Shown here in pieces: positions 4,641 through 30,211 of a DNA stretch of 31,933 nt; within the stretch, counting starts at the first letter, position 1; each line of letters begins with the position of its first letter. The notes under the pieces are model-generated. The model was not told where the DNA came from. It worked only from the letters and a program-made list of their open reading frames with translations, and did no database searches. Position numbers and translations under genes: made by a program. The DNA lies in the NCBI GenBank assembly GCA_946479075.1, contig CAMLDT010000013.1, positions 1 to 31,933 of the forward strand, given 5' to 3'. This DNA is from an uncultured Polaromonas sp. Lineage in GTDB: Bacteria; Pseudomonadota; Gammaproteobacteria; Burkholderiales; Burkholderiaceae.

Positions 4641-5438
4641 ATGAGCATATCTCCGCGATCCACCCCCATCAAAACGGCGAAGCCCAGCCACAAGCGCCCC
4701 ACACCCAAGGTGGCGGCGGCCAAAATGGCGGCTGCGCTGGCGGCGCAGCCGCCACAGTCTGCGGAGGCGAAAACCGCCATGGGCTGGTTGCACACCGCCA
4801 AATTCCTGACCACGGCACCTGAGCTCAGGCACCTGCCGCCGCTCGACGTGCCGGAAATCGCCTTTGTCGGCCGCTCCAATGCCGGCAAGTCCACCTGCAT
4901 CAACACCCTGACCCAGATCAACCGCCTGGCCTTTGCGTCCAAAACGCCGGGCCGCACCCAAAGCATCAATTTGTTCTCGTTGGGCAAACAGGGCGTGATG
5001 GACGCCGTGCTGGCCGACCTGCCGGGTTACGGCTACGCGGCGGTGCCCAAGGCGGCCAAATTCCGCTGGCAACAGGTGATGGGCAACTATCTGCAAACGC
5101 GCGAAACGCTGCGCGGCGTGGTGCTGCTGTGTGACCCGCGCCACGGCCTGACCGAACTCGATGAAATCCTGCTCGACGTGATCCGTCCCCGGGTGGAGGA
5201 GGGCCTGAAGTTCCTGGTGCTGCTGACCAAGTCCGACAAGCTCAACAAGACCGAAGCAGCCAAGGCGCTGTCGATTGTGCGACTGCAGGCCGGCGGCGGC
5301 GATGTCAAACTGTTTTCATCGCTGAAGCGGCACGGTGTCGAGGAAGTGGCCCAGCATTTGTGGCAGTGGGCGCACCCCGCGGTTCAGCAAGACGTTGCAG
5401 GCGCCGCGCCTGCGGATGGAGAGGCCGGCGCCTCCTGA
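4641..5438 (+). CDS. engB: Ribosome biogenesis GTP-binding protein EngB (YsxC/YihA)
   Basis: A TRAFAC-class GTPase needed for late assembly of the 50S ribosomal subunit. With the start at 4641 it is 265 residues: a basic, alanine-rich extension of about 45 residues, then the GTPase domain. The motifs are G1 GRSNAGKS (77-84), the G2 threonine in the KTPGRTQ segment (T102), G3 DLPG (126-129) and G4 TKSD (196-199). The frame stays open back to 4521, but an ATG at 4617 falls in a likely -10 box. The ATG at 4641 follows a GGGGGA stretch 11 bases upstream, which is a loose ribosome binding site. A later start at MGWLHTAKF (residue 47) would give the minimal family length, so the extension is the uncertain part. 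It is followed by a dispersed repeat at 5470-5528. Confidence 0.94.
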   Translation: MSISPRSTPIKTAKPSHKRPTPKVAAAKMAAALAAQPPQSAEAKTAMGWLHTAKFLTTAPELRHLPPLDVPEIAFVGRSNAGKSTCINTLTQINRLAFASKTPGRTQSINLFSLGKQGVMDAVLADLPGYGYAAVPKAAKFRWQQVMGNYLQTRETLRGVVLLCDPRHGLTELDEILLDVIRPRVEEGLKFLVLLTKSDKLNKTEAAKALSIVRLQAGGGDVKLFSSLKRHGVEEVAQHLWQWAHPAVQQDVAGAAPADGEAGAS

Positions 5439-5469: not shown

Positions 5470-5528
5470 AGTCAAATCTGCCTCCAGCCCTTGATTGACG
5501 GGCGAGAGCAGCTACCAAATTCATAGCG
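5470..5528 (+). repeat. Dispersed repeat copy A (between engB and the hydrolase)
   Basis: Contains CCTCCAGCCC, TTGATTGACGGGCG, AGAGCAGCTA and AATTCATAGC in order, the same blocks as copy D at 23818-23884 and, reversed, copies B and C. It ends three bases before the ATG of the alpha/beta hydrolase and so forms that gene's leader. Confidence 0.8.
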
Positions 5529-5530
5529 CC

Positions 5531-6457
5531 ATGATCCAGACCCGCCTCCTGACCCTGCCCCACGGCATCACCCTGTCCTGCCGCATGGCGGGCGAGGAAG
5601 GCCGGCCGGCGCTGATGTTTCTGCACGGTTTCCCGGAAGCGGCTTTTGTCTGGGACGGCCTGCTGGAACACTATGCACGGCCGGAAAACGGCGGCTACTT
5701 CTGCATCGCCCCCAATCTGCGCGGCTTTGAGCAATCGAGCGCACCGGTGGACCCGGCGGCCTACCGGCCCAAACACCTGATGCAGGATATTTCTGCGCTG
5801 ATTGCGCGGGTGGCGCCGGCCGGGCAGCTTGACGCACTTGTCGCCCACGACTGGGGCGGCGCCGTCGCCTGGAACGTGGCGGCGACGCTGCCGCAGTTGA
5901 TGCACAAACTGGTGATCATCAATTCGCCGCACCCCGGCACCTTTTTGCGCGAGCTGAAGCATTCGCCGGCCCAGCAGGCCAGCAGCGCCTACATGAATTT
6001 TTTGATCCGCCCGGACGCCGAAACCCTGCTGGCTGAAGACGACTTCCGCCGGCTCTGGCAGTTTTTGACCAAGGGCAAGGATCCGCAGGCCAGCAGCACG
6101 CCGGCCTGGCTCACGGAAGACGTCAAGGACCAGTACCGTGCCGTCTGGCGCGCCGGGCTGACCGGCGGCTGCAACCTCTACCGCGCCTCCCCCTTGCGTC
6201 CGCCGCGTCCGCACGACCCGGCCGCTGCCGCGGTGACGTTGCCACCGGAGCTGCTGACTGTGCGGCTGCCAACGCTGGTGCTCTGGGCCATGGACGACAT
6301 CGCCCTGCCGCCGGCGCTGATCGAGGGGCTGGACGCCTGGGTGCCCCGGATGCAGTTGCAGAAGATTCCCGGCGCCTCGCACTGGGTGGTGCACGAACAA
6401 CCGGCGCTGGTCGCCAGCGCACTGCAAGGCTTCTTCAGCCAGGATGAAGCCGCCTAG
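5531..6457 (+). CDS. Alpha/beta hydrolase, epoxide hydrolase / haloalkane dehalogenase-like
   Basis: A 308-residue cytoplasmic hydrolase. The oxyanion-hole motif HGFPEAAFVW (32-41) is followed by the nucleophile elbow VAHDWGGAVAW, whose Asp (D107) replaces the serine of esterases. That Asp marks the branch that includes soluble epoxide hydrolases, haloalkane dehalogenases and fluoroacetate dehalogenases. The acid is probably in LWAMDDIALPP and the catalytic His in GASHWVVHEQP. The substrate cannot be told from the sequence. The start at 5531 gives a normal N-terminus; no ribosome binding site is visible because a dispersed repeat occupies the leader right up to the start codon. A second repeat copy follows the stop. 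Confidence 0.85.
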   Translation: MIQTRLLTLPHGITLSCRMAGEEGRPALMFLHGFPEAAFVWDGLLEHYARPENGGYFCIAPNLRGFEQSSAPVDPAAYRPKHLMQDISALIARVAPAGQLDALVAHDWGGAVAWNVAATLPQLMHKLVIINSPHPGTFLRELKHSPAQQASSAYMNFLIRPDAETLLAEDDFRRLWQFLTKGKDPQASSTPAWLTEDVKDQYRAVWRAGLTGGCNLYRASPLRPPRPHDPAAAAVTLPPELLTVRLPTLVLWAMDDIALPPALIEGLDAWVPRMQLQKIPGASHWVVHEQPALVASALQGFFSQDEAA

Positions 6458-6462
6458 CTCTC

Positions 6463-6521
6463 TTTTTGATAGCTACTCATGCACGCCAGACGGGGGCTGG
6501 AGCCCTAAAAGGCACTTAAAA
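6463..6521 (-). repeat. Dispersed repeat copy B (after the hydrolase)
   Basis: Read on the minus strand it gives TTTTAGGGCTCCAGCCC, a variable middle, then GCATGAGTAGCTATC. The first block matches copies A and D; the second shares GCATGAGTAGCT with the half copy E inside the dppDF-like gene. It lies between two convergent genes. Confidence 0.75.
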
Positions 6522-16841: not shown

Positions 16842-18419
16842 TCAGTTCGAAGTGATTTTTTGCAACAGTCCGGCTGTCGATCCGTCGAGGCCGCTGCTGT
16901 CCCCTGTGGCCAGCCGGGGTTCCAGGTCGCGTGCCAGCACTTTGCCGAGCTCGACGCCCCACTGGTCGAAACTGTTGATGCCCCAGATCGCACCGCTGAC
17001 AAATACGCGGTGCTCCTGCAGTGCGATCAACGCACCGAGGCTGGCCGGGTCCAGGCTGTCCAGCAGCAGGAAGGTGCTGGGACGGTTGCCGGGGAAATGC
17101 CGGTGGCCGCCTGGATCGTCCTTGCCCTGCATCAGCGCCTGTGCCTGCGCCAGCACGTTGGCCAACAACTTGTCATGGTGGCCCGGCAGGCTGCGCGCCG
17201 CTTTCCGGACGGCGACAAATTCCACCGGCACCACCTCGGTGCCCTGGTGCAGCATCTGGAAGTAGGCATGCTGGCCGTTGGTGCCGGGTTCACCCCACAG
17301 CACCGGCGCGGTCGCAAACGGCAGGGCCTGCCCCTGCAGGTCAACACGTTTGCCATTGCTCTCCATTTCGAGCTGCTGCAGGTAGGCCGGCAAGCGTCGC
17401 AAGGGGCTGCTGTAGGGCGCAATGCTGCGGCTGGTGAAGCCATGGAAGTTGCGGTACCAGACGTCCAGCAGGCCCAGGCGTACCGGCAGGTTGTGGGCCA
17501 GCGGCGCGGTCCGGAAATGCTCGTCCATCGCATGGGCGCCAGCCAGAAAGTCGCGGAAACCCTGCGCGCCAATGGAAATCGCCAGCGGCAAGCCGATCGC
17601 CGACCACAGCGAATAACGCCCGCCCACCCAGTCCCAGAAGCCGAAGGTGGTGCTGATGCCGAAGTCCCGTGCTGCCGCGACGTTGGTGGTCAGGGCGGCG
17701 AAATGGCGGGCGATGTCGGTGCCGCCCTGCGCCTCGAACCACTGCTTGGCCGATGCCGCGTTGGTCATCGTCTCTGTCGTGGTGAAGGTCTTGGAGGCGA
17801 TCAGGAACAGCGTGCTTTCGGGCTTGATCCGGGCCAGCACGGTGGCCAGTTCCTGACCGTCGATGTTGGAGACAAAGTGCAGGCGCTTGCCCGGCAGGCG
17901 AAATTCATCCAGCGCCAGCACCGCCATCTGCGGGCCCAGGTCCGAGCCCCCGATGCCGATGTTGACGATGTCGGTGAGGGCCTCGTCGCTGCGCACCTGC
18001 TCGGCGTACGCCAGCATGGCGTCCAGTGTCCGATGCACTTCGGCAAGCTCGTTTGCTATGTTTTCAGGAGCTGCTTGCGCCCGTCCAGCAAGGGCTGTAG
18101 CCGGATTTCTTAACAAGAAGTGCATCACGGCACGGTTTTCGGTGCGGTTGATGCGGTCTCCCGCGAACATCGCGTCGCGGCGTTCCTCTAGCCCGCACTG
18201 GCGCGCCAGGTCCAGCAGCAGCGTCTGCGCGGGCCCGTCGATCAGGTTTTTCGACAGGTCGGCAAACACATGGGGCGCGTCCTGGCTGAACTCGGCAAAA
18301 CGCTGCGGATTGGCCGCAAACGCATCACGCAGATCAAAGGGTTTGCCCGCCGTGGCGTAGTACGCCTGCAGCGCCGCCCACGCCGGTGTCTGGTCGCAGC
18401 GAATCATGGCTTCACTCAT
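16842..18419 (-). CDS. pgi: Glucose-6-phosphate isomerase
   Basis: Interconverts glucose 6-phosphate and fructose 6-phosphate in the cytoplasm. The 525-residue protein has the family signature blocks: [11 protein letters not shown] (90-100), [31 protein letters not shown], and [15 protein letters not shown] near the C-terminus. The ATG at 18419 overlaps the tal stop as ATGA, so the two are coupled. The odd part is residues about 105-122 ([18 protein letters not shown]), which are encoded by a reversed copy of the dispersed repeat seen elsewhere in this window; they replace or lengthen a loop just after the INRTENRAV block. The reading frame is intact and all motifs are kept, so the enzyme is probably active. 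Confidence 0.97.
18054..18108 (-). repeat. Dispersed repeat copy C, in frame inside pgi
   Basis: Read on the minus strand it gives GGCTACAGCCC, TGGACGGGCGCAAGCAGCT and, after nine bases, ATAGCAA, matching copies A and D block by block. It encodes roughly pgi residues 105-122 without stop or frameshift. Confidence 0.8.
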
Positions 18420-22283: not shown

Positions 22284-23807
22284 ATGGTCACACGCGTAAC
22301 GGCCCGGGCTGCGGGCAAAAAAGTCGCGAAGAATGTACAGAAAAACGTGACGCGTGCGGTCTCGGGCACCCTGGGTCTGTCGGGCGAGCGCATGAGCAAG
22401 GTGGACACCGCCTGGCTGCGCATGGATACGCCTTCCAACCTCATGATGATTGTCGGCGTCTGGCAGCTCACGCCGGGTGTCAGCCACGCCGCGGTGTGTG
22501 AACGCCTGGAAGGCAGCCTGCTCAAGTACGCGCGCTTCAAACAGCGGGTGATGGAAGACGCGGCCGGCGCCACCTGGGTCAATGACCGTTACTTCGACGT
22601 CAAAAACCACGTCATTGCCGAGAAGTTGCCCCGGTCCGCAAAGGGCAAGGCGCAGGAGCTGTTGCAGGACCGCGTGGCCGAACTCGCCATGCAGCCGCTG
22701 GACCGCAAGCGCCCGCTGTGGCAGATCCACCTGATCGAGGATTACACCGGCCCCGACGGTGTCAAGGGCAGCGCCATGATTGTGCGCATCCACCATTGCA
22801 TCGCGGACGGCATCGCCCTGATCTCGGTGACCATGTCACTGGTGGACGGCGGCGCCGCGCCCCCCGAGCGGCGCAAAAAGGACACGGGTGGCGGCGCCGA
22901 AGACTGGATTGCCGACACACTGCTCAAGCCGTTCACCGACCTGACGGTCAAGGCGCTGGGCGCGGCCGGCGAAGGGGCCGTGCGTTCGCTGCACCTGCTC
23001 AGTGACCCGCAAAAAGGCATGGCCGGCTCGCTCGACATGGCCAAGGTCATGCTGCAGGTGCTGAAAGACGGCGCAGCGCTGGCGCTGATGCCGGACGATT
23101 CGAAGACGCGGCTGAAGGGCAAACCGGGCACGACCAAAAAGGTGGCCTGGTGCCAGCCAATCCCGCTCGACGAGGTCAAGGCCGTTGGCAAGGCGCTGAA
23201 CTGCTCGATCAACGACGTGCTGCTGAGCTGCGTGGCCGGCGCCATCGGCGAATACCTCAAGTCGCATGGCGACGATGTGAAGGGCCAGGAAATCCGCGCC
23301 ATGGTACCGGTGAACCTGCGGCCCATGGAGCAAGCCTACAAGCTCGGCAACCGTTTTGGCCTGGTGCCACTGGTGCTGCCCATCGGCGTCGACAACCCCA
23401 TCGAGCGTGTGTATGAAGTGCGCAGGCGCATGGCCGCGCTCAAGGGCAGCTACCAGCCGCTGCTGGCCTTCAGCCTGCTGGCGATTGCCGGCCTGCTGAT
23501 CAAGCCTGCGCAGGACGCGATGCTGAACCTGTTCGCAAAAAAAACCACCGCCGTCATGACCAACGTGCCGGGCCCGCGCGACAAGCTCAAGTTTTGCGGA
23601 TCAACCCTGGAGCAAAGCATGTTCTGGGTGCCGCAGTCCGGCGACGTCGGGCTGGGCGTCTCCATCCTGAGCTACGGCGGCGGCGTGCAGTTTGGCGTGA
23701 TCACCGACAGCACGCTCTGCCCCGAACCCCAGCGCATCATCGACGAGTTCATTCCGGAGTTTGCCAAGCTGTCGATCGTGACCTTGATGCTGCCCTGGGG
23801 CGAGTAA
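22284..23807 (+). CDS. Wax ester synthase / diacylglycerol acyltransferase (WS/DGAT)
   Basis: Transfers an acyl group from acyl-CoA to a fatty alcohol or diacylglycerol to make wax esters or triacylglycerol, storage lipids formed at the membrane. The 507-residue protein carries the catalytic HHxxxDG motif as HHCIADG (170-176), preceded by the family block RKRPLWQIHLIEDY (141-154), and the C-terminal DUF1298 half with CSINDVLLSCVAGAI and TNVPGPR. A basic extension of about 35 residues precedes SKVDTAWLRMD, where most family members begin; the ATG at 22284 has GGAG seven bases upstream and is accepted. The divergent ACBP gene supports acyl-CoA supply. Confidence 0.95.
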   Translation: MVTRVTARAAGKKVAKNVQKNVTRAVSGTLGLSGERMSKVDTAWLRMDTPSNLMMIVGVWQLTPGVSHAAVCERLEGSLLKYARFKQRVMEDAAGATWVNDRYFDVKNHVIAEKLPRSAKGKAQELLQDRVAELAMQPLDRKRPLWQIHLIEDYTGPDGVKGSAMIVRIHHCIADGIALISVTMSLVDGGAAPPERRKKDTGGGAEDWIADTLLKPFTDLTVKALGAAGEGAVRSLHLLSDPQKGMAGSLDMAKVMLQVLKDGAALALMPDDSKTRLKGKPGTTKKVAWCQPIPLDEVKAVGKALNCSINDVLLSCVAGAIGEYLKSHGDDVKGQEIRAMVPVNLRPMEQAYKLGNRFGLVPLVLPIGVDNPIERVYEVRRRMAALKGSYQPLLAFSLLAIAGLLIKPAQDAMLNLFAKKTTAVMTNVPGPRDKLKFCGSTLEQSMFWVPQSGDVGLGVSILSYGGGVQFGVITDSTLCPEPQRIIDEFIPEFAKLSIVTLMLPWGE

Positions 23808-23817
23808 GCCAGCTGGA

Positions 23818-23884
23818 TTTACAAGGGTTTTAGGGCTCCCGCCCATACTGGGCGAGCGCGAGCAGCTATTGAATTTATAGCAAG
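23818..23884 (+). repeat. Dispersed repeat copy D (between WS/DGAT and coaX)
   Basis: The cleanest copy: TTTTAGGGCTCCCGCCC, then GGCGAGCGCGAGCAGCTATT and GAATTTATAGCAAG. It fills most of the 91 bases between two convergent genes, which have no other terminator-like structure; GGGCTCCCGCCC and GCCC-ATACT-GGGC can form small hairpins. Confidence 0.8.
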
Positions 23885-26175: not shown

Positions 26176-27684
26176 CTAGGGTTTGCGCCGCATCGAAGCA
26201 GGCAGGTTTTTCCACGGCAGGTCGGTCGGGTCGGCCGCCATCGGGCCGGCGGCTTTCGCCACGATGATGTCGCGGCCTGCATCGGCCACCAGCGGCGTGA
26301 AGTCGGCGCGGAAGTGGTTGGAGCTTTTGACCACGATGATCTTCATGGCTTCGGGCGCGATGCCGACCATGCGAAACAGTTCGCGGTCCAGCATCTGCAT
26401 CTGCCCGCTGGCCACCACCACCAGCACGCCGGCTATCTCCAGGCAGGCGCAGGGCCCCAGCGTGGCGGCCATGCCGGTCATCATCGGGCCTTTGAGCGTG
26501 ACCCGGCCGTCGCTGAGCGCGCGCACGGTGAACTGGCCGGTGACCGGCGGATCGCTGGACTGGCCGGTGAAGGTCGGCACCGACTGTCCCAGGCTGAGGA
26601 TGACGGTGGCCCCCACGCCGGCGGCATGCGCAGCCTCGGCTGCTTGCGGATCAAACATCAGCCCCAGCGCCACCTGGCCAGCGAACTGGCGGCCCGCGCC
26701 CTGCGCCAGCAAGGCATGCAGCAAGCCGGTGGTGTTGCTGCTGCCACCGGCGCCCGGATTGTCCTGGGTGTCGGCGATGACCAGTGGCGTCTGCAGGCCG
26801 GCCGCACGGGTCAGCGCCAAGGCGACCGCGTCCTGCGCCGGCAAAAAGTCCAGCGTCCATTGCGACGGCTCGGCCACGCGGTCGTAAAGGTGCGCAAGCG
26901 CCTCCTTCGCGCGCTCGCCATGAGCCCAGACCATGGGTCCGCACTCGCCGAAGTCGGAGGCAGGAAAACCCATGCAAAAACTCAGGCGCACACCGAACTG
27001 CGCATCGGCTTTTGCGAGCGCGTCATACAGGCCTTGCGCCGGCGCCATCCAGGTGCTTTGTGCATTCAGGGGAATCAGGAAAGGCAGGCGCCGGAATTGG
27101 CCATCCTCCTTGCGCCCCCGCGCCATGCGGCGCGCCAGCAATTCGGCGGTGAGTTCGCCGGTGGAAGCCATGTCGATGTGCGGGTAGGTGCGGTAGGCCA
27201 CCAGCGCATCGGCCTGCGCCAGCATGGCTTCGGTCACATTGGCGTGCAGGTCCAGGCTGGCGACGATGGGCAGGTCCGGGCCCACCAGCGCGCGGATGCG
27301 GGCGATCAGTTCGCCCTCTGTGTCGTCCACGTGGTCGGCCACGCCGGCCCCATGCAGGTCCAGGTAAACGGCATCAAAGCCGCCCTTCGCCACATCGGCC
27401 AGCACCGCGGCGCTGATGCGTTCAAAGGCGTCCTGCGTGACGTAAGAAGAAGGCGAAGCGCCGCACCAGGAAGCTGGCACAAGCGCCCAGCCGCGCGCCT
27501 GGGCAGCCGCGATAAAACCGCCGGCCGGCAGGTTCACGCCCGTGAGCTGGTCCAGCATGGCCTGGCCTTGCATGAAGGCCGGAAACACGTCACCGCGATT
27601 GAATGCTGCCCAGTCGGCCTTCAGGGGCGCAAAGGTGTTGGTTTCATGCTGGTAGCCGGCGATCAGGACTTTCAGTGGTGTCAA
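26176..27684 (-). CDS. M81 family metallopeptidase (MlrC-like)
   Basis: A 502-residue zinc hydrolase of the family of microcystinase C (MlrC), which in Sphingomonas opens linear microcystin fragments. Likely metal and catalytic residues are E14 (YQHETNTF), H111 (YLDLHGAG), D145 and H147 (SLDLHANV) and H169 (YPHID); the spacings 34, 2 and 22 agree with those I recall for MlrC. The C-terminal half has the family block ADTQDNPGAGGSSNTT. The start is a TTG at 27684 that overlaps the stop of the ABC ATPase gene as TTGA, with GGGAG eight bases upstream; no other start fits. The genes before it import peptides and the next one is an amidase, which points to an intracellular peptidase for an unusual peptide. 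Most family members have unknown substrates. Confidence 0.92.
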   Translation of the reverse strand: MTPLKVLIAGYQHETNTFAPLKADWAAFNRGDVFPAFMQGQAMLDQLTGVNLPAGGFIAAAQARGWALVPASWCGASPSSYVTQDAFERISAAVLADVAKGGFDAVYLDLHGAGVADHVDDTEGELIARIRALVGPDLPIVASLDLHANVTEAMLAQADALVAYRTYPHIDMASTGELTAELLARRMARGRKEDGQFRRLPFLIPLNAQSTWMAPAQGLYDALAKADAQFGVRLSFCMGFPASDFGECGPMVWAHGERAKEALAHLYDRVAEPSQWTLDFLPAQDAVALALTRAAGLQTPLVIADTQDNPGAGGSSNTTGLLHALLAQGAGRQFAGQVALGLMFDPQAAEAAHAAGVGATVILSLGQSVPTFTGQSSDPPVTGQFTVRALSDGRVTLKGPMMTGMAATLGPCACLEIAGVLVVVASGQMQMLDRELFRMVGIAPEAMKIIVVKSSNHFRADFTPLVADAGRDIIVAKAAGPMAADPTDLPWKNLPASMRRKP

Positions 27685-29327
27685 AAGGCAGCTCCCGGCG
27701 CCGCAGCCAGCAGCCGGCGCGTGTAGTCATGTTGGGGATGGGCATACAGCTGGGCCGTCGGCCCCTCTTCGACAATTTGTCCCTGGTGCATCACGATCAC
27801 GCGGTCGCACAACTGCGCGGCCACACGCAGGTCATGCGTGATAAAGAGCAGCCCCAGGCCAAGCTCGGCCTGAATCTCACGCAGCAAGGCGAGGATCTGT
27901 GCCTGCACACTGACGTCGAGCGCGCTGACGGCCTCGTCGGCGACCAGCACATGCGGGCGGCAAGCCAGCGCACGCGCAATGGCGATGCGCTGGCGCTGGC
28001 CCCCCGAGAACTGGCTGGGGTAACGTTGCAGGCCTTCAACCGGCAGCCGGACTTTATGCATCAATTCGGCCGCAAGCCTCGCCGCTTCTGCATGAGTAGC
28101 TCCGAAATTAATAGCACCCTCCATCAGGGAGTCACCCACCTTGCGACGCGGATTGAGTGAACGGTTGGGGTCCTGGAACACCACCTGAATCTGGCTGCGC
28201 AAGGGCCGCAGGCGGCCTTCGTTGAATCCGGCGACATCGATCAGCGACGCATCCGCATCCCCGCTGGACCGGCGCCACCACACCTGGCCGCCGCTCGGGT
28301 CGATCAGGCGGATCAGGCAGCGCGCGAGGGTGGACTTGCCGGATCCCGACTCGCCGACCACACCCACGGTTTCGCCGGCTGACACCGCCACCGATGCGGC
28401 CTGCAGGGCGTGCGTGAACCGCTGGCGGCCCAGCCAGTCGCGCGCGCCATAGGTCTTGCTGACCTCGTGGCCGCGCAGCAGCGGCCCCCCTTGGGGCGCA
28501 GGTCGCGCTGGCGGCGGCGTCATGCCAGGCACCGCGGCCAAAAGCATCTTGGTGTAGTCCGCCTGGGGATTGCGCAGCACTTCATCCCGTGTGCCGTATT
28601 CAACGGCCCGGCCCTGGTGCATCACCAGCACTTCGTCGGCAATGTCAGCCACCACGCCCATGTCGTGCGTGATGAACAGCACGGCGCAGCGGTGGCCGCC
28701 GGACAGGTCGGCCTGCAACTCCTCAATCAGCTTGAGGATGTCCTTTTGTGTGGTGACATCGAGCGCCGTGGTCGGCTCGTCGCAGATCAGCAGGGCCGGC
28801 TGCAGGATCACGGCCATCGCAATCACGATGCGCTGGCGCTGGCCGCCCGAAAGCTGGTGCGGATAGCTGCGCATCATGCGTTCAGGCTCCGGCAGCTTCA
28901 CGCGTTGCACGATGTCCCGTACGGCCTGATGGCGTTTTTTGGCGTTCCAGTCGGTGTGCTGGCGTAGCAGTTCATCAATCTGGTCGCCGCAGGTCATGAC
29001 CGGGTTCAACGCCGTCATGGGCTCCTGGAACACCATGCCCATGGCCTGGCCACGCAGGGCACGCAGGCGCTGCGGACTGGCCTCCAGCAGCGACTCTCCC
29101 TGCAGCACGATGCGTCCAGGGCCGGGCTTCAGCTCACGCGCCAGCAGACCCATGACCGCCGTGGCCATGACCGATTTCCCAGAACCGGATTCACCGACCA
29201 CACACAATGTTTTGCCGGCATGGATGCGCAGGCTGATATCTTCAACCGCATATGCGCGGTCGCTGCCGGGCGGCAGGGCCACATGCAGGCGGTCGATCAC
29301 AAGAACAGGTTCGATGTCGCTGCTCAT
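27681..29327 (-). CDS. Fused DppD-DppF-type ABC transporter ATPase
   Basis: A 548-residue protein with two complete nucleotide-binding domains, joining what are often two genes. Domain 1: Walker A GESGSGKS (45-52), signature LSGGQ (159-163), Walker B LLICDEP (179-185), H-loop H221. Domain 2: Walker A (325-332), Q-loop Q385, signature FSGGQ (440-444), Walker B LVADEA (461-466) with Ala in place of the usual Pro after DE, H-loop H498. Both halves are likely active and would power the two permeases upstream. The ATG at 29327 overlaps the dppC-type stop as ATGA; the open frame to 29753 is a shadow of dppC. Residues about 403-415 (EGAINFGATHAEA) are encoded by a half copy of the dispersed repeat, in the helical domain between Q-loop and signature. 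Confidence 0.95.
   Translation of the reverse strand: MSSDIEPVLVIDRLHVALPPGSDRAYAVEDISLRIHAGKTLCVVGESGSGKSVMATAVMGLLARELKPGPGRIVLQGESLLEASPQRLRALRGQAMGMVFQEPMTALNPVMTCGDQIDELLRQHTDWNAKKRHQAVRDIVQRVKLPEPERMMRSYPHQLSGGQRQRIVIAMAVILQPALLICDEPTTALDVTTQKDILKLIEELQADLSGGHRCAVLFITHDMGVVADIADEVLVMHQGRAVEYGTRDEVLRNPQADYTKMLLAAVPGMTPPPARPAPQGGPLLRGHEVSKTYGARDWLGRQRFTHALQAASVAVSAGETVGVVGESGSGKSTLARCLIRLIDPSGGQVWWRRSSGDADASLIDVAGFNEGRLRPLRSQIQVVFQDPNRSLNPRRKVGDSLMEGAINFGATHAEAARLAAELMHKVRLPVEGLQRYPSQFSGGQRQRIAIARALACRPHVLVADEAVSALDVSVQAQILALLREIQAELGLGLLFITHDLRVAAQLCDRVIVMHQGQIVEEGPTAQLYAHPQHDYTRRLLAAAPGAAF
28089..28116 (+). repeat. Half copy E of the dispersed repeat, inside the dppDF-like gene
   Basis: GCATGAGTAGCT, then CCGAAATTAATAGCA, corresponding to the right half of copies A and D and sharing twelve bases with copy B. 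It is in frame in the ABC ATPase gene. The left half is not recognisable. Confidence 0.5.
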
Positions 29328-30211
29328 GGACTGCGCTTGGAGAACTTCGGATCGAGCACATCGCGCAGGCCGTCGCCGAGGAGGTTGATGGCCAGCACGG
29401 TGGGCACCAGGAACAGCGCCGGGAACAAGACGTTGCCCGGGTACTGCGTAAACTGCACCCGGCCTTCGGCCATGATGTTGCCCCAGGTCGGGATGTCGGC
29501 CGGCAGGCCCAGCCCGAGAAAGCTCAGGATGGCTTCGGTCAGGACCGCAGACGCGGCGACAAAAGTACCCTGGACGATCAGTGGGGCCATGGCGTTGGGC
29601 AGGATGTGGCGCCACAAAATGACCGGCGTTGGCGTCGCCAGCGCGCGCGCAGCCTCGACAAACGGTTCCTCGCGCAGCGTCAGCACCATGGAGCGCACCA
29701 GGCGCGTGACGCGCGGAATTTCCGGGATGGCGATAGCCACCACCACTGTCCACAGCTGCGCGCCCAGCGCGGCCACCAGCGCAATCGCCAGCAGGATCGC
29801 CGGAATGGCCATCAGCCCGTCCATGAAGCGCATGAGCACCGCATCAACGATGCGGAAATAACCGGCCAGCATGCCCAGCAGCGCCCCTACACCGATGGCC
29901 ACGGCGGCGGTGAAAAAGGCCACCAGCAAGGACGTGCGTGTGCCGTAAAGCACGCGGCTGAAAATGTCGCGGCCGAAATTATCAGCGCCCATCCAGAAAG
30001 TGTGCGCAACGGCAGTACCATCGAGTTGCGCAAACTCGCCATGGACGCCCGCGGCGGTATTGATGTGTGCCGAATCCATCGCGGCCGGGTTCACCGTGCC
30101 GAGGAAGGGCGCCATTGCAGCGATCAACAGCAGGGCACCCAGGACACCCACGCCAAAACGGAAGGCGCTGTTGGCCCAGAGGCGCCGCCAAAGACCTGAT
30201 TGACGCTGCAT
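29324..30211 (-). CDS. Peptide-type ABC transporter permease, DppC-like
   Basis: A 295-residue inner-membrane permease. It has the DppC-type N-terminal segment, a membrane helix at about 18-37, the family block FWMGADNFGRDIFSRVLYGTRTSL (72-94), five further helices and the EAA loop EEPFVEAARALATPTPVILWRH (181-202) that docks on the ATPase. The start overlaps the dppB-type stop by one base (TGATG) and the end overlaps the ATPase gene by four, so it is tightly coupled. Opp/Dpp/Nik-class transporters carry di- and oligopeptides, nickel or glutathione; context with two hydrolases favours peptides. Confidence 0.95.
   Translation of the reverse strand: MQRQSGLWRRLWANSAFRFGVGVLGALLLIAAMAPFLGTVNPAAMDSAHINTAAGVHGEFAQLDGTAVAHTFWMGADNFGRDIFSRVLYGTRTSLLVAFFTAAVAIGVGALLGMLAGYFRIVDAVLMRFMDGLMAIPAILLAIALVAALGAQLWTVVVAIAIPEIPRVTRLVRSMVLTLREEPFVEAARALATPTPVILWRHILPNAMAPLIVQGTFVAASAVLTEAILSFLGLGLPADIPTWGNIMAEGRVQFTQYPGNVLFPALFLVPTVLAINLLGDGLRDVLDPKFSKRSP

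Follow-up and report, generated by a model that had tools for sequence, protein, structure and literature searches.

A dispersed ~57-bp DNA motif of many Comamonadaceae, putatively a protein recognition site, is translated within a loop of glucose-6-phosphate isomerase

The pgi gene of the window, by which we mean the whole 31,933-nt stretch analysed, raises the question of why a core enzyme should owe part of its sequence to a dispersed DNA repeat. A sequence-only reading of this DNA had proposed that Pgi residues about 105–122 are encoded by a copy of such a repeat, read in frame without a stop, and had interpreted it as a mobile repeat accommodated as protein sequence, comparable to the palindromic elements found within genes of Rickettsia. 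Using an nhmmer model of 58 positions made from 189 non-pgi copies of Polaromonas CG9_12 (G003, the genome of locus L004), we found a near-full copy at this place (Table 1), and its translation, Pgi residues 104/105–122, is in frame and contains no stop. Given that the model holds no pgi sequence and that other copies lie in the window, the original observation stands, with the coordinates 18055–18108. The pgi copy deviates from the family consensus at model positions 45–46. Besides it, the window carries three clear copies and one weak copy according to nhmmer, and the same model gave no match better than E 1 in the reversed window. The window ORFs and their limits are those of a mechanical ORF listing. 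Simpler searches missed the family because its copies are too diverged: the element was absent among the 20 of 48 direct families and 25 of 44 inverted pairs listed by a general repeat search of the window, and a search of the window with 3 mismatches recovered the pgi copy alone. An early profile from three window copies had found 10 copies in the locus flanks and the window, the 3 seeds included.

Table 1 Motif copies and the pgi gene in the 31,933-nt window
Feature	Position	Strand	Evidence
pgi, glucose-6-phosphate isomerase, 525 aa	16842..18419	-	ORF; Pfam PF00342 in listed homologues; solved PGIs with E down to 4.5e-152
Motif copy within pgi (Pgi residues ~105–122)	18055..18108	-	25.7 bits, E 3.5e-7, model positions 5–58 of 58
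3' core of the pgi copy, GCT CCT GAA AAC ATA GC	18055..18071	-	family consensus GCTATTAATTTAATAGC
Dispersed copy, mainly between the ORF that ends at 5438 and the one that starts at 5495	5471..5527	+	32.8 bits, E 2e-9
Dispersed copy at and past the end of ORF 5495–6457	6457..6508	-	24.4 bits, E 8.5e-7
Dispersed copy past the ORF ending at 23807	23831..23881	+	32.0 bits, E 3.7e-9
Weak partial copy (model positions 24–58) in ORF 27681–29753 (-)	28081..28115	+	12.6 bits, E 0.0045

We next asked how the match is distributed among Pgi relatives. The 80 loci fetched were mostly from Comamonadaceae, the named closest Pgi relatives being mostly Polaromonas, and the resulting set held 80 Pgi rows (79 of the 80 loci plus the window; L076 was left out, its frame not having been found). 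Whole-Pgi identity to these relatives, taken from alignment summaries, was 73–90% for 32 aligned and 64–88% for 47 aligned sequences. In 20 of the 80 rows the motif matched the coding strand of the same loop with 9 bits or more, always in one common codon phase as read from the match coordinates, and the best match on the opposite strand reached 8.2 bits. As the sequence-only reading had pointed out, a coincidental match would be expected to leave the same residues in relatives lacking the repeat. Instead, the motif was present in pgi (at least 9 bits) in 13 of the 24 genomes with at least 30 copies of a 20-base motif pattern (described below) and in none of the 32 genomes with at most 16, a count that leaves out L062 (22 matches) and L076.

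The loop itself appears permissive. The earlier reading had suggested placing residues 101–125 on a structure. In an AlphaFold model (mean pLDDT 87.5, superseding an earlier, poor model with a pLDDT of 65.7), residues 111–119, lying between a short helix (109–113) and a long one (119–144), are the sole internal segment with a pLDDT below 50. Compared with the two best solved PGIs shown, the loop is unrelated in sequence, partly gapped against 4em6 and about equal in length in 6bzb. The loop evolves fast with or without the motif: its pN/pS was 0.09–0.76 in 11 motif-bearing pairs and 0.13–0.80 in 6 other pairs, as against 0.05–0.22 for the rest of Pgi overall and 0.08–0.22 in the 11 motif-bearing pairs. 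Such fast drift is the one point in favour of these residues being ordinary protein sequence that resembles the repeat by chance. Set against it are the E value of 3.5e-7 with the pgi-free model, the matches in the same loop of a quarter of the rows, their restriction to copy-rich genomes and the retention of rare codons (see below), on which grounds chance resemblance can for practical purposes be ruled out.

Loop length was less easily interpreted. It ranged from 23 to 40 residues in the 17 Pgi rows with at least 12 bits and from 11 to 28, with one loop of 55, in the 60 rows with less than 9 bits, the 3 rows of 9–12 bits being left out of the comparison. The usual motif-bearing loop has 23 residues, and 49 of the 60 motif-free rows have at most 22, none fewer than 11. 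Since the motif codes for 18–19 residues, the gain is smaller than a full insertion into most of the motif-free loops would give, and the loop may either have received an insertion that was later trimmed or have grown in place. Four rows (L034, L013, L046 and L074) carry the motif in another register, which is compatible with separate insertions. On the Pgi tree, the product of a short search with many weak branches, element presence takes 13 state changes, of which the starred branches force only 2. Two further observations concern what the loop can hold. In L029 (Rhodoferax MAG palsa_997) the pgi loop has 55 residues and contains a different dispersed-repeat-like sequence (peptide HCEERSDAAI, DNA CGTCATTGCGAGGAGCGAAGCGAC...) that resembles a CGTC-tagged REP, so that the Pgi loop accepts unrelated sequences. 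In two Curvibacter pgi genes, sisters in the tree, L023 retains motif-like codons and L021 has most of the same residues in GC-rich codons, indicating that the peptide can outlive the DNA motif.

To place the pgi copy in its family, we turned to the chromosome of Polaromonas CG9_12. The motif is ~57 bp long and holds ~55 bits, with 26 of the 58 model positions at 1 bit or more; its outline is AAA...GCGC...GC...AGCTATnnAAnnnnATAGC, the consensus runs AATCAAAT...ATAGC with a palindromic 3' end (GCTAT...ATAGC), and its GC content is 45% (142 copies outside gene interiors). In the 1.6 of about 4.9 Mb of this genome that were analysed, with gene calls from an in-house gene finder, the profile detected 190 copies at E 0.01, compared to 0 in the reversed sequence. 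They comprised 132 intergenic copies, 48 within predicted genes and 10 overlapping gene ends. Genes are thus depleted of the motif, with 48 of 190 copies inside them against 75% expected by chance. Within genes, 26 of the 30 coding-strand copies share one codon phase, as do 14 of the 18 on the opposite strand. A 13,841-codon repetitive ORF (G003:C5:723535-765058) contains 5 reverse-strand profile matches that inflate the intragenic count; 3 of them have equal score and lie 1335 nt apart, and all 5 may represent one event. A 3555-codon ORF of the same genome (L111:2829-13493, minus strand) has three in-frame motif copies.

Counts across 58 genomes (20 + 38) were obtained with a 20-base pattern from the 3' end of the motif, allowing up to 2 mismatches. 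At least 30 matches were present in 25 of the 58 genomes, with 222 in the whole Polaromonas CG9_12 genome and 538 in a Comamonadaceae MAG, compared to 0–3 in the six Limnohabitans and Ramlibacter genomes included (three of each) and 0–4 per strand with the reversed pattern. Among plasmids, 13 of 72,556 records matched, the best being from Polaromonas naphthalenivorans CJ2 (E 6e-4), in a search of low sensitivity, as the consensus at that bit score finds just 34 copies in the 1.6 Mb of CG9_12. Among 42 carrier genes listed, 20 had their proteins scanned, and 20 of 20 matched Pfam families, many of them housekeeping, including TruB, HemD, Nif3, a YfiH-type protein, MetRS, IleRS and a DUF3418 helicase.

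Along the CG9_12 stretch, copies favour the space between converging genes, with 0.84 copies per kb in convergent gaps, 0.43–0.48 in tandem gaps and 0.13 in divergent gaps; 38 of 119 convergent gaps bear the motif as opposed to 10 of 161 divergent ones, and 49 of the 81 tandem-gap copies are nearer the upstream gene. Enrichment in convergent gaps, proximity to upstream genes and the palindromic GCTAT...ATAGC end would all suit an RNA-level element, that is, a terminator or an mRNA-stabilising hairpin. Against such an element speak the strand use in tandem gaps, which shows no preference (41/40), the 48 copies within predicted genes, a search of the window in which no Rfam family reached its gathering score and the absence of pairing covariation in the 190 copies (see below), and we consider it very improbable.

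The same survey revealed a balanced use of strands overall (95/95) and fewer copies in the lowest-GC quartile (1.05 per 20 kb, versus 2.55–3.1). Seven motif deserts of 32–72 kb occur in the stretch (G003:C5 1-1600000), four of them with a GC content of 0.577–0.594 against a mean of 0.613; they are possibly acquired islands. Copies are not uniformly spaced (CV 1.21, against 1.10 for random placement). Spacings under 1.5 kb are rarer than expected (20 versus 38.6, with 0 of 500 shuffles as low), which may be explained by there being one site per gap.

Given that the earlier interpretation called the repeat mobile, we compared copies between close relatives. All 60 alignable comparisons of CG9_12 copies showed a copy in the relative (42 with G039 and 18 with G044, presence being counted at E 0.1 and one copy possibly entering both comparisons). 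In the reverse direction 61 of 73 copies were matched. The 12 unmatched ones include many weak copies, and 9 of them have sites equal in length within 1 nt, two differ by 16–18 nt and one, badly aligned, is 140 nt shorter; a clean loss of 57 bp, as an empty site would show, was found in none of these 73 comparisons. Nor did the variable positions covary as those of a hairpin would, with no clear excess of Watson–Crick covariation at any column pair over 190 copies (best z 2.9), in a test that is blind to invariant positions, including the GCTAT/ATAGC arms. All 8 genomes searched, of which two are copy-poor, contained the Y1 transposase family PF01797, and copies of at least 15 bits lay near only 2 of 12 Y1-transposase loci (L195 and L200), so that no regular linkage to a REP-type transposase was apparent at these 12 loci. 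The motif consensus also lacks a GTAG or CGTC tag, as such tags are defined in the part of PMC3733652 that we drew on.

The host proteins gave a mixed picture as to whether the motif adds length. In nif3, the 8 motif-bearing rows (at least 13.1 bits) are equal in length to 7 of 12 motif-free rows, the remaining 5 being 1–4 residues longer, and the conserved residues in and beside the motif (R.V..V, WC) are largely retained, E. coli YbgI being included in the comparison; at least one coding copy thus comes without added length. One nif3 row, L310 of Variovorax OK212, has a 14.2-bit match with GCT...ATAGC although its genome is motif-poor (16 matches); this match is perhaps left over from a system that Variovorax has lost. 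HemD, by contrast with nif3, shows a clean block of 20 residues that is absent in 2 of 23 rows (L254 and L255, from wider relatives), and the Pgi loops are longer, as described above. The truB gene of CG9_12 (L118:913-1899) holds the motif at 47.2 bits, and the TruB peptide pattern fits the rows of 16 of 30 relatives, the motif score coming from the CG9_12 row only. Across this work and the relevant part of PMC3733652, truB is a recurrent target of unrelated dispersed sequences. Comparisons of an ABC transporter and MetRS were not counted, their motifs lying in linkers too variable to align.

These data bear most directly on the proposal of a short mobile palindromic repeat (REP- or RPE-like, with its transposase acting in trans) that inserted into pgi and whose copies are now old and immobile. 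Copy numbers in the tens to hundreds for 25 of the 58 genomes counted, longer motif-bearing Pgi loops, the presence or absence of the HemD block among relatives, the different registers in the four Pgi rows and the depletion in genes all speak for it, and intragenic REPs and RPEs are known (PMC3733652, in the part considered here). It is at odds with the 60 of 60 and 61 of 73 shared copies and the missing clean loss, with the lack of covariation, with the nif3 copy, with a transposase found in copy-rich and copy-poor genomes alike and seldom near copies, and with the conservation of core positions described next. We regard this origin as the strongest of the competing explanations and nevertheless as unlikely. 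Of the sequence-only reading, a dispersed copy translated in frame in a tolerant loop is supported. Its mobility and its likeness to Rickettsia palindromic elements are not supported, in view of the shared copies, the missing covariation, the lack of a regularly linked REP-type transposase at the 12 loci, the nif3 rows without added length and the conserved core.

Conservation was assessed on orthologous copies of at least 28 bits with alignable flanks, at positions where CG9_12 has the consensus base, between this genome and two relatives. The test draws on 27 aligned pairs (12 intergenic, 9 at gene edges and 6 intragenic) from three genomes that belong to a single close group, and a copy can count in both comparisons. 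High-information positions were retained in 239 of 252 cases between genes, 185 of 193 at gene edges and 126 of 130 inside genes, compared to 167 of 214, 125 of 162 and 89 of 109, respectively, for the other motif positions. Core bases are therefore retained far above other positions and flanks, both between and inside genes (95–97% versus 77–82%, with flanks at 0.77–0.79; Fisher's test, 6e-8 intergenic, 1e-7 edge and 1e-4 inside genes). Taken as a whole, the element is kept no better than its flanks (0.766 versus 0.759 retained in 23 intergenic pairs), so that the constraint is confined to the core.

Codon use within host genes pointed in the same direction. Rows for this analysis were chosen by amino-acid pattern, without regard to codons (26 Pgi rows, including some under the motif threshold, 15 of 23 HemD rows and 16 of 30 TruB rows). 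The motif alanine is encoded by GCT in 25 of 26 Pgi, 15 of 15 HemD and 14 of 16 TruB rows, compared to a mean of 7%, 10% and 12% GCT at conserved alanine columns (motif column included) and to 0.24, 0.25 and 0.54 at the next-highest alanine columns. Sharing of GCT between rows was 0.96, 1.00 and 0.87 at the motif alanine, as opposed to 0.17, 0.23 and 0.25 at other alanines, for Pgi, HemD and TruB, respectively; because the rows are related, the probabilities of these codon counts are not independent. Pgi codon +4 ends in A in all but one of the 26 rows even though its residue is variously I, V, E, L or G, the opposite of how coding sequences normally evolve. If copies had recently been inserted one by one from a shared pool, similar codon sharing could appear across genera, but hardly in the TruB series of close relatives or in the orthology test.

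A DNA-uptake or recombination signal (DUS/USS-like), spread in place by biased transformation, would accumulate in core genes and would need no transposition. It would suit the nif3 rows without added length, the equal use of both strands, the housekeeping genes among the 20 scanned carriers and the scarcity of copies in low-GC windows, which may be foreign. A motif of 57 bp and ~55 bits, with scattered conserved positions, is much longer than the known short cores of such signals, and none of the open-access papers searched combines 'DNA uptake sequence' with Comamonadaceae; we hold this explanation to be improbable, less so than an RNA element.

The account that we find somewhat more probable than its competitors taken together is that the motif is a putative DNA recognition site, kept by selection and written into a disordered loop of Pgi. 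Selection would act on the DNA, which would most likely be bound by an abundant nucleoid or chromosome-organising protein. New sites would appear in places that tolerate sequence change, such as intergenic 3' regions and loosely structured protein loops; some would be built by substitution of existing bases and others would come with a gain in length. Pgi residues ~105–122 would then be a by-product of the DNA signal, which the enzyme would tolerate owing to the disorder of this loop. The convergent-gap enrichment, the strand balance, the scarcity in low-GC regions and the core conservation would fit a site on the resident chromosome to which a protein binds. As to its role, a site for a chromosome-organising protein is our first guess and a DNA-uptake or recombination signal our second. 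The longer motif-bearing Pgi loops and the 20-residue HemD block, which are as insertion would give, argue against the recognition-site account, as do the other register in four Pgi rows and the depletion of the motif in genes, the latter being as for any disturbing sequence; in the light of the Pgi loops and the HemD block, insertion may have been the origin at some sites.

In its widest form, to which we give about an even chance, the proposal is that many Comamonadaceae (25 of 58 genomes) carry a chromosome-wide ~57-bp DNA signal, putatively read by a protein and selected even in housekeeping genes, where it gives rise to a recurring peptide, A-Q-x-A-[ITP]-x-x-[IV]-A, in enzymes that are unrelated to one another (Pgi, HemD, TruB, Nif3, YfiH and others). 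If so, a junk-like repeat would be a working chromosome address label, and DNA recognition, rather than the function of the protein, would determine part of the sequence of core enzymes. The motif offers a ready bait for finding the putative reader protein, with motif-poor Limnohabitans and Ramlibacter as control. It also serves as a warning that a dispersed repeat read in frame is not always a mobile element.

How does this motif compare with known systems? DUS and USS likewise occur in hundreds of copies on both strands and inside genes, with short, nearly exact cores, whereas the present motif is far longer and more degenerate (58 positions, of which 26 reach 1 bit). The Betaproteobacteria repeat element (BRE) is similarly dispersed in Comamonadaceae chromosomes and lies partly in coding sequences; as described in the part of PMC3110155 used here, it measures 75–91 bp, has 69% GC in Bordetella and reaches at most 29 copies (Polaromonas JS666), unlike the ~57 bp, 45% GC and 190 copies in 1.6 Mb found here, a distinction drawn by description and not by alignment. 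The BIME-2/REP gyrase sites of E. coli are also dispersed and intergenic, and a role in genome organisation has been proposed for them (PMC6379681, sections on these sites). The motif differs from them in its lack of hairpin covariation and of gyrase-type GC phasing (~10.75 bp) on the right flank; the left flank has a 10-bp signal that exceeds the null and may stem from an AT-rich edge. With Rickettsia palindromic elements and GTAG/CGTC-tagged REPs, of which the portion of PMC3733652 concerned reports intragenic copies, including REPs or RPEs within the truB genes of Rickettsia, Stenotrophomonas and other taxa, the motif has in common that it is short, dispersed, in frame inside genes and hosted by truB; it departs from them in that it shows neither covariation nor a tag nor a regular RAYT link, that the compared pairs yielded no clean empty site and that nif3 gains no length from it.

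The closest counterpart is a pattern that is already published, ATAGCT(N)22CAAAAG, reported in 2017 from Polaromonas naphthalenivorans CJ2 and listed there as potentially new, without an assigned function (PMC5217627, in the section concerned). In the open-access papers searched we found no further description of the family, no paper pairing Comamonadaceae with 'interspersed repeat', and the hairpin 13–14-mers in only two unrelated papers, and the main text of the RepRanger paper (PMC12306157) names neither Polaromonas, Comamonadaceae nor Acidovorax. The reverse complement of our 190-copy consensus has exactly ATAGCT, 22 bases and CAAAAG. Of the 125 copies given in that section of PMC5217627, 101 are intergenic, 18 in genes and 6 overlapping gene ends, with 34 between convergent genes, and the CG9_12 copies are likewise mainly intergenic and frequent in convergent gaps. 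Where that section gives location counts only, the present analysis adds the motif's extent of 57 bp, the conservation of its core, its copies in the coding sequences of pgi, hemD, truB, nif3 and yfiH and the counts across 58 genomes.
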